Source: Alicyclobacillus sp. (GTDB lineage Bacteria > Bacillota > Bacilli > Alicyclobacillales > Alicyclobacillaceae). From it: a stretch of DNA of 49,371 bases. The notes under the pieces were generated by a model. It did not search any database, was not told where the DNA came from, and saw nothing but the letters and a program-made list of their open reading frames with translations. The translations under genes were made by a program, and so were the position numbers. The DNA is taken from contig NZ_JAIMAV010000013.1 of the NCBI RefSeq assembly GCF_023511815.1, positions 1-49,371 on the forward strand, given 5' to 3'. Shown here one piece after another: positions 33,975-35,536 of this stretch; the stretch's first letter is position 1; each line of letters opens with the position of its first letter.

Positions 33975-34247
33975 ATGTTTGAGGTCGTGGACAAAGTGGT
34001 CTGGGCGATGGCCGGCATGCGCTGTCTGTCCAGTCTGGTGGAGCTGACGGGCGCCCTGCTCATGCTGTATTTCGGGACGGCCGCGTCCGCGCTGCAGGTG
34101 AATGCGGCGCTGGCGCTGGTCGGACCGTTCGTGCTGGTGACCGTCACCATGCTCGGCGTGAGCGGGCTTGCCGGCGAGATCGCCCTGTGGCGGATCGCCC
34201 TGATCATCCTCGGGGTGGGGCTCATTCTGTTTGCGGCGCGCGGGTGA
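33975..34247 (+). CDS. yqhV: YqhV family (DUF2619) membrane protein
   Basis: A 90-residue protein with three predicted helices and the YqhV signature AMAGMRCLSSLVELTGALLML. In spore formers yqhV lies between efp and spoIIIAA and is of unknown function, possibly sporulation-related. ATG 33975 matches the family start; an in-frame GTG at 33948 is an alternative. Confidence 0.85.
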   Translation: MFEVVDKVVWAMAGMRCLSSLVELTGALLMLYFGTAASALQVNAALALVGPFVLVTVTMLGVSGLAGEIALWRIALIILGVGLILFAARG

Positions 34248-34272: not shown

Positions 34273-34374
34273 TCAGCGAATGGCTCTGCGCATCAGGCTG
34301 AACACGAAGAACATCAGGAGGACGAAGATCACCAGGAAGACGACAATCCAACGCACCATCACGGCGATGTCCAC
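34273..34374 (-). CDS. 33-residue single-helix membrane protein
   Basis: A small reverse-strand reading frame of 33 codons: start GTG 34372-34374 and stop TGA. The product is a short N-terminal MDIAVMVRWI stretch, a helix of about 18 hydrophobic residues (IVVFLVIFVLLMFFVFSL) and a basic end MRRAIR, as in bitopic small proteins. It has a strong ribosome binding site (GGGAGGGGAGGG) seven bases upstream. The codons and charge distribution are sensible. It lies between yqhV and spoIIIAA on the opposite strand. No homologue is recognised by eye. Confidence 0.65.
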   Translation of the reverse strand: MDIAVMVRWIVVFLVIFVLLMFFVFSLMRRAIR

Positions 34375-34457
34375 ATTCGTCCCTCCCCTCCCAGCGGCTC
34401 TCCCTCGTATTGGATGCGCGGCCGCCCCGCATGGTGACGGCGACCCGCCCGCCGCAA

Positions 34458-34489
34458 GTCATAACCGCACCAGCCTGTCCGTATACATG
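34458..34489 (+). promoter_or_regulatory. Possible sigma-E promoter of the spoIIIA operon
   Basis: GTCATAAC near 34458-34465 and TATACATG at 34482-34489 resemble sigma-E boxes but the spacer is 16-18, slightly long. spoIIIA is sigma-E-dependent in Bacillus subtilis, so context supports it. Confidence 0.45.
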
Positions 34490-34507
34490 GACTAACCGGG
34501 GAGGTGG

Positions 34508-35536
34508 ATGACCGTGTGGAGTCGGGCATCCGCGGCCAGTGAGGGTCCGTGGGCGCAGGTGTACCGCGTGTGTCCGCCGGACGTCGCGCTGCGGCTGCAG
34601 AATCTGCCGGCGGCCGTGCTGGAACGGGTGGAGGAGCTGCGGTTTCGCCTGCATCAACCGCTTCATCTGTGCGGTGCCGGCGTCGACCAATTCCTGCATC
34701 GCGATCACGGTCTGACCACGCGGGCGGACGAGGCGTTGCTCGCCACGGAGGAGCACCTGGAGCGGGTGATTCAAGGGGTGACCCAGGCCTCCCTGTACGC
34801 CGTGGAGGATGAGATCCGGCGCGGATTCGTCACCATGCCGGGCGGCCACCGCGTCGGCATCGCCGGCCGCGCGGTGCTGTACGAATCGGGCGCCGTGCGC
34901 TCCTTCCGCAGCATCTCCGCGGTCAACATCCGGATAGCCCGGGAGCACGTGGGGGCGGCCGAACCGCTGCGGCCCCTCGTGCAGGATCCGAAGGTGCAGA
35001 GCCCGCTGAGTGTGCTCATCCTCTCCCCGCCGCAGTGCGGCAAAACCACCCTGCTGCGGGATCTCGCCCGGATGTGGAGCGAGGGCGCGCTGGCCCAAGG
35101 CGGGCCCCGCAAGGTCGCGGTGGTCGACGAGCGCTCCGAGATCGCCGGATGTCTCGAGGGGGTGCCCCAGTTTCGCCTGGGCCCGCGCACGGATGTGCTC
35201 GATGCCTGCCCGAAGGCGGAGGGGATGCTGATGGCCATCCGCAGCCTGTCTCCGGACATCGTGGTGACGGACGAGATCGGGAGGCGGCAGGACGCCGACG
35301 CCATCCTCGAGGCGGCCAACGCCGGCGTGGCGGTGTTGGCCACCGCCCACGCGCGGACGCTCGAGCAGTGGCGGGGGCGCCCGCACATGGAGGAGCTGTA
35401 CCGGGCACGCGTGTTCGACCGGTTCGTGATTCTCAGCCGGCGCAGGGGGCCGGGCACCGTGGAGGCGGTCCTCGACGCGAGCGGGCTCCCGGTGGCCGGT
35501 GTCGCTCACCTCTCGCGAAGGACGGATGCGCCGTGA
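34508..35536 (+). CDS. spoIIIAA: Stage III sporulation ATPase SpoIIIAA
   Basis: A 342-residue secretion-type ATPase, related to GspE, active in the mother cell at the feeding channel connecting mother cell and forespore. Walker A SPPQCGKTTLLRD (about 172-184), the PDIVVTDEIGRRQD Walker B and ATAHARTLEQ His box are intact. ATG follows GGGAGGTGG. Overlaps spoIIIAB. Confidence 0.96.
   Translation: MTVWSRASAASEGPWAQVYRVCPPDVALRLQNLPAAVLERVEELRFRLHQPLHLCGAGVDQFLHRDHGLTTRADEALLATEEHLERVIQGVTQASLYAVEDEIRRGFVTMPGGHRVGIAGRAVLYESGAVRSFRSISAVNIRIAREHVGAAEPLRPLVQDPKVQSPLSVLILSPPQCGKTTLLRDLARMWSEGALAQGGPRKVAVVDERSEIAGCLEGVPQFRLGPRTDVLDACPKAEGMLMAIRSLSPDIVVTDEIGRRQDADAILEAANAGVAVLATAHARTLEQWRGRPHMEELYRARVFDRFVILSRRRGPGTVEAVLDASGLPVAGVAHLSRRTDAP

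Follow-up and report, generated by a model that had tools for sequence, protein, structure and literature searches.

Among the very small proteins of sporulation that act at the forespore surface are SpoVM (26 aa) and CmpA (37 aa), of which SpoVM is an amphipathic surface helix and not a membrane-spanning one. The microprotein described here resembles both in being very small, a likeness of general description, and because smaller sporulation proteins are known, SpoVM among them, a preliminary description of this DNA that called the protein one of unreported size was too strong. Another comparison is offered by the YjcZ family (PF09680, YjcZ_2), whose members are, like the RW proteins discussed below, tiny and built on one helix, and which has 1–15 copies per genome, some of them in tandem; according to an excerpt of the sigma-K regulon study, yjcZ belongs to the sigma-K regulon of Bacillus subtilis (PMC517825).

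In the window, which is the whole 49,371-nucleotide stretch of Alicyclobacillus DNA that was analysed, the microprotein gene consists of a GTG start codon (34374–34372), 32 further codons and a stop, and encodes VDIAVMVRWIVVFLVIFVLLMFFVFSLMRRAIR, with GTG read as Met (Table 1). The protein has a single hydrophobic stretch, with a best 19-residue Kyte-Doolittle mean of 3.27, and a basic C-terminus, RRAIR; its membrane character is supported by this sequence, in which the one hydrophobic stretch is of membrane-spanning length. Among the 151 ORFs of 25–50 aa in the six frames of the window, two have a 19-residue Kyte-Doolittle mean of at least 2.0, and the microprotein is the only one to combine a strong hydrophobic stretch with a Shine-Dalgarno sequence. 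Reading the sequence bore out the coordinates, strand, GTG start, Shine-Dalgarno spacing, single hydrophobic helix and basic end given in the preliminary description, and its placement of the gene between yqhV and spoIIIAA was confirmed by the PF10942 and TIGR02858 matches, both neighbours being on the opposite strand. The stop codons of yqhV and of the microprotein gene are separated by 25 nt. In the literature searched, the core peptide strings of the microprotein and of its multi-copy relatives were not found in any paper, and the matches listed for YjcZ, Alicyclobacillus small proteins, yqhV/spoIIIAA and spoIIIA antisense included no title or abstract opening on the microprotein; comparisons with NCBIfam, PHROGs and PDB gave nothing usable.

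Table 1 Features of the microprotein locus and positions of multi-copy relatives.
Feature	Position	Strand	Remarks
Microprotein CDS, 33 aa, single-pass membrane	34273..34374	(-)	Stop included; frame conserved, median dN/dS 0.15
Shine-Dalgarno GGGAGGGGAGGG	34381..34392	(-)	Six bases 5' of microprotein GTG
yqhV (PF10942, DUF2619), convergent neighbour	33975..34247	(+)	E 3.5e-28
spoIIIAA, first gene of spoIIIA operon, divergent neighbour	34508..35536	(+)	TIGR02858 E 4e-102
Promoter-like element AC-N17-CATCCAATA, sigma-K-like spacing	34408..34435	(-)	Promoter activity inferred
Putative sigma-E promoter of spoIIIA (GTCATAA, spacer, GTATACATG)	34458..34489	(+)	Divergent from microprotein gene; similar elements in relatives inspected
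Multi-copy family copies, genome G000	C109:13461, C122:63695, C122:63869, C139:10595, C115:244, C113:17261, C104:3938, C90:61402, C161:265, C129:8638		
Multi-copy family members, other loci	L146-L155, L161-L189		

Purifying selection acts on the amino acids of the microprotein. Over 703 pairs drawn from 38 distinct sequences (41 before identical ones were removed), mean pS in the microprotein codons was 0.71 and mean pN 0.16, and the median dN/dS was 0.15 in the 222 pairs with dS of 0.1–1.5, pairs outside this range being saturated or too close. Entropy at the three codon positions was 0.68, 0.10 and 1.33, and the two other frames of the same DNA showed no such contrast (pS/pN 0.29/0.28 and 0.05/0.36). 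The frame is a genuine gene that has been strongly conserved across Alicyclobacillus and its relatives.

An orthologue divergent from spoIIIAA was found in 40 of the 41 genomes of the window's family, which is probably Alicyclobacillaceae, judging from identical microproteins in named loci. The whole-genome search gave strong matches (E 2.5e-14 or better) in 40 of these genomes, each with spoIIIAA nearby on the opposite strand (L083–L120, L207, L208), and the sole exception, G034, is a 62% complete genome that also has no SpoIIIAA match. The preliminary description had set a test of frame loss in relatives, and in that test each of the 40 family genomes that carry the gene proved to keep the frame open, the start codon always sits 3–13 codons upstream of the RW motif, and by a lenient test a GGAGG-like Shine-Dalgarno sequence precedes it in all 40 and in 16 of the 18 genomes of the sister family (f2). 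All 18 genomes of the latter family have a microprotein match, paired divergently with spoIIIAA in 17, the locus of the 18th (L194) being cut by a contig end. Within the order, 58 genomes matched at E 1e-6, 55 of them once, G315 and G704 twice and G017 four times; the three extra copies of the spoIIIA-opposite type in G017 lie elsewhere in its genome (L205:700-800, L205:2457-2546 and L206:2536-2631). Among loci fetched by SpoIIIAA similarity (L003–L016, the incomplete L014 and L016 and the 66 more distant L017–L082 being left out of the count), the microprotein was at the same place and on the same strand in 11 of 11 from Alicyclobacillus and three metagenome bins (L003–L013), and no microprotein was found upstream of spoIIIAA in Tumebacillus lacus (L015). 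The residues invariant among 12 microprotein sequences are M1, R8, W9, I10, V11, V12, F13, L14, F17, L20, M21, V24 and F25. At 15 of 38 family loci yqhV was not found, and it is therefore a dispensable neighbour.

The divergent pairing with spoIIIAA was also present in all five genomes examined from families f22 (two), f29, f36 and f44 (one each), the f44 member (L214) being the least certain because it is longer, has Thr for Arg and has no start codon within 13 codons. The five genomes examined from f37, a Tumebacillus-like family, keep the microprotein, and their spoIIIAA is either on a different contig or at a distance of more than 1 Mb. The microprotein gene is near efp-yqhV in four of them; in the fifth (G149, L212), a search of the 2.5 kb on the 3' side of the gene found neither efp nor yqhV. 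In this family spoIIIAA is absent from its usual place after efp-yqhV (L210, L213, L215 and L216, compared with L226, L227, L229 and L231), and its SpoIIIAA is, of those compared, closest to that of Tumebacillus lacus, at 72–74% identity. The f14 genome G052 carries a similar protein in another context, unlinked from spoIIIAA and, as judged by eye, beside a histidine kinase-like gene. In the phylum sample (E 1e-4), 397 of 398 genomes had no microprotein match and the sole match was the window's own genome. Because the gene and spoIIIA lie apart in f37, the case for a direct link with the SpoIIIA channel is weak, and such a link is not established.

The microprotein has relatives in a multi-copy tiny membrane family (TRWAVVFLIIFVLFFLLVP; type MYGVFGGYTRWAVVFLIIFVLFFLLVPxY...), with profile homology at a hhalign E of 5.7e-9; without the row of a fused duplicate, the hhalign score was 46.9, compared with at most 36.9 in 150 column shuffles. 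The members read are 29–50 aa long, nearly all with their own Shine-Dalgarno sequence, several in tandem and one a fused double, and five members had no Pfam or NCBIfam match above the model cut-off. At E 1e-8, which gives lower bounds as part of the candidates was scored, the family occurs in at least 46 of 299 class genomes from eight GTDB families, with at least 7–17 copies in each of 25 genomes of the window's family; the window's genome has 10 clear members and one divergent. A search at E 0.1 returned many weak matches, mostly of the RW core only (10 of them in the genome of the window, and as many as 36 in another). Common to this family and the microprotein are a [RK]W-x-V-V-F-L-[IV]-[IV]-F core, a length of mostly 30–45 aa, one helix and a Shine-Dalgarno-led start, and the microprotein contains the core by which we define an RW tiny-membrane superfamily, [RK]W-x-[VIL]-[VA]-F-L-x-x-[FY] in a short single-helix protein. 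It differs from the multi-copy family in mostly being present once per genome and at a fixed locus, in having I next to the RW, in the absence of the FGGYT lead and of a P behind the helix, and in its basic end, in place of which the multi-copy proteins have Thr/Cys- or Gly-rich tails. Near some multi-copy copies are proteins of 119–131 aa with a Gly/Trp-rich end and GRWA(V/A)xFLIIYVLWG (L238:382-741, L246:3249-3608 and L246:6680-7075; weak HMM support), an ending that raises the possibility of the RW helix also acting as a C-terminal tail. Two sites have a small acid-soluble spore protein gene close to a multi-copy family member, at a distance of about 0.1 kb in one (G000:C113:16998-17162) and about 1.2 kb in the other (L245:4425-4649).

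Promoters used by sigma-K have AC at −35, a spacing of about 16–17 nt and CATANNNTA at −10. The excerpted regulon text describes them as a 5-nt −35 and a 10-nt −10 element with a gap of 14–16 (PMC517825). Upstream of the microprotein gene we found a conserved element, AC-N17-GCATNNAMTR, with sigma-K-like spacing. The set of upstream regions comprised 87 of the spoIIIA-opposite type, reduced to 60 without near-duplicates and to 57 by a motif filter that removed L123, L151 and L156. The pattern AC-N15-18-CATNNN[AC]T[AG], chosen post hoc on sequences already inspected, was present in 38 of the 57 (expectation 1.9; none of 200 shuffle sets exceeded 7, though shuffles overstate the significance of upstream patterns because the regions are related). 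The CAT element itself is present in 47 regions and missing from 10, eight of these among the 14 sister-family regions. When the 47 are anchored on CAT, C is found at −18 in 94%, A at −19 in 79% and G at −1 in 81%, and no base reaches 50% from −17 to −2, the distance of AC from CAT being constant at 17 nt. Of the 57 regions, 2 match the strict sigma-K pattern, AC-N15-17-CATANNNTA (expectation 0.3; shuffles gave no more than 3), and 4 match a relaxed version (expectation 1.2; shuffles gave no more than 6); 7 of the 47 anchored regions have A as the fourth −10 base, and AC and the spacing are present in most orthologues. Patterns for sigma-E, -F, -G, -H and -A were found in 0, 0, 0, 1 and 0 of the 57, the one sigma-A-type pattern tried having an expectation of 1.7, and none of these, nor the strict and relaxed sigma-K patterns, was clearly enriched. 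The single site in the window is not statistically unusual (6 matches to the AC-N17 element in the window, 2.4 expected); the promoter case rests on conservation among related sequences. CATNNNNTR occurs in 48 of 57 regions of the microprotein set (15.1 expected) and in 33 of 56 of the multi-copy set (14.8 expected), the fixed AC-N17 being clear only in the former. As a clade-specific sigma-K calibration, gerPA-like genes gave no match above the family cut-off and only one promoter-like site.

About 23–54 bases further upstream of the microprotein's element, on the other strand, is the promoter-like element of spoIIIA, whose sigma-E assignment is putative and drawn by analogy with B. subtilis from the same excerpted source (PMC517825). 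A near-palindrome, GTCC-N8-GGAC (window 34477–34492), lies over the presumed −10 of this promoter, with GTCCATGTATATGGAC on the other strand in many relatives. By eye, a GAC(A/G)-type element, possibly a regulator site, recurs about 30–40 nt before the CAT element of multi-copy genes (L165, L170, L174, L185 and L189).

On balance, we regard it as probable that the gene encodes a genuine 33-aa single-pass membrane protein of the mother cell in sporulation, possibly late, and that, within a lineage-specific family of tiny '[RK]W-hydrophobic helix' proteins, it represents the branch that keeps its position and is mostly single copy. The conservation of frame, helix and strand, together with selection on the amino acids, supports the earlier suggestion of a possible sporulation or membrane micro-protein. 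The sporulation role itself is suggested by the conserved place beside spoIIIA, the sigma-K-like spacing upstream and the kinship to a family with a distribution complementary to that of YjcZ. A mother-cell sigma factor would transcribe the gene, and its product would be translated and then inserted in the mother-cell or outer forespore membrane, by the positive-inside rule with the N-terminus out and the basic C-terminus in, where it may act as a small structural or accessory peptide. The transcript would run antisense towards yqhV and, where yqhV is present, could oppose read-through from yqhV to spoIIIA, which would itself be antisense to the microprotein gene.

A tenable if doubtful alternative is that the membrane microprotein is real but has no connection with sporulation (it could, for instance, be a small accessory subunit of a vegetative membrane complex), and that its gene lies beside spoIIIA only through ancestral gene order. 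Such a protein would fit the persistence of the gene where spoIIIA lies elsewhere, near efp-yqhV in four of the five genomes examined from f37, and the lack of upstream enrichment of the strict sigma-K pattern (2 of 57); however, the sigma-A-type pattern was seen in 0 of 57 regions with 1.7 expected, the conserved AC-N17-CAT element has sigma-K-like spacing, and the multi-copy kin complement the distribution of YjcZ, a sigma-K gene of B. subtilis in the regulon excerpt. It is improbable that the protein is a dedicated accessory subunit of the SpoIIIA-SpoIIQ channel, since the gene and spoIIIAA are unlinked in the f14 genome G052 and in each of the five genomes examined from f37, and 397 of 398 genomes of the phylum sample (not sorted by spoIIIA presence) have no match, even though the divergent pairing is conserved in f1, f2, f22, f29, f36 and f44 and both would presumably act in the mother-cell membrane. 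Despite the antisense location in a regulated intergenic region, it is hardly credible that the conservation reflects a regulatory or antisense RNA, or that the hydrophobic frame is there by chance, as the conserved Shine-Dalgarno-led start, the free third and nearly fixed second codon positions, and a contrast of pS and pN absent from the other two frames stand against it, and a non-coding or antisense RNA was ruled out by this codon-level selection and the absence of an Rfam match up to E 1.

With the microprotein, the classic spoIIIA operon acquires a further conserved gene in its direct vicinity, in organisms relevant to food spoilage and to acid or heat environments; the microprotein also leads to a multi-copy family of tiny membrane proteins that the Pfam and NCBIfam models tested do not capture. 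PF09680 matched neither the window protein nor two orthologues and was found in 0 of 21 relatives, and in an alignment comparison the microprotein lacks the Gly/Tyr-rich lead of YjcZ_2 and the FALIVVLFILLIIVG that follows it. Membership of the microprotein in YjcZ was rejected, there being no Pfam match and a profile score of 16.3, within the shuffled controls (mean 15.2, maximum 27.6). For the multi-copy family the score was 25.8, compared with a maximum of 22.9 in 60 shuffles, which is marginal, and we do not claim homology to YjcZ.

YjcZ_2 (PF09680, E 1e-3) occurs in 90 of 299 class genomes, from 23 families. None of the 299 genomes has both YjcZ and the multi-copy RW family, compared with 13.8 expected by chance, the two 299-genome draws appearing to be the same sample (20 of the 209 genomes negative for YjcZ are named); the corresponding probability of 1.3e-8 overstates the non-overlap because genomes within a family are not independent, and a fairer statement is zero overlap between the 8 families with multi-copy RW proteins and the 23 with YjcZ. 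A bolder reading, which we consider unlikely but worth stating, is that the RW family is the counterpart of YjcZ in Alicyclobacillus- and Tumebacillus-like lineages, two tiny mother-cell membrane families dividing the spore formers between them, and that this family was founded by the ancestral, single-copy spoIIIA-opposite protein, which would have a role dedicated to the engulfed-forespore membrane. The non-overlap with YjcZ means that the long-standing question of the role of tiny YjcZ-type proteins in spores can be approached from a second lineage.
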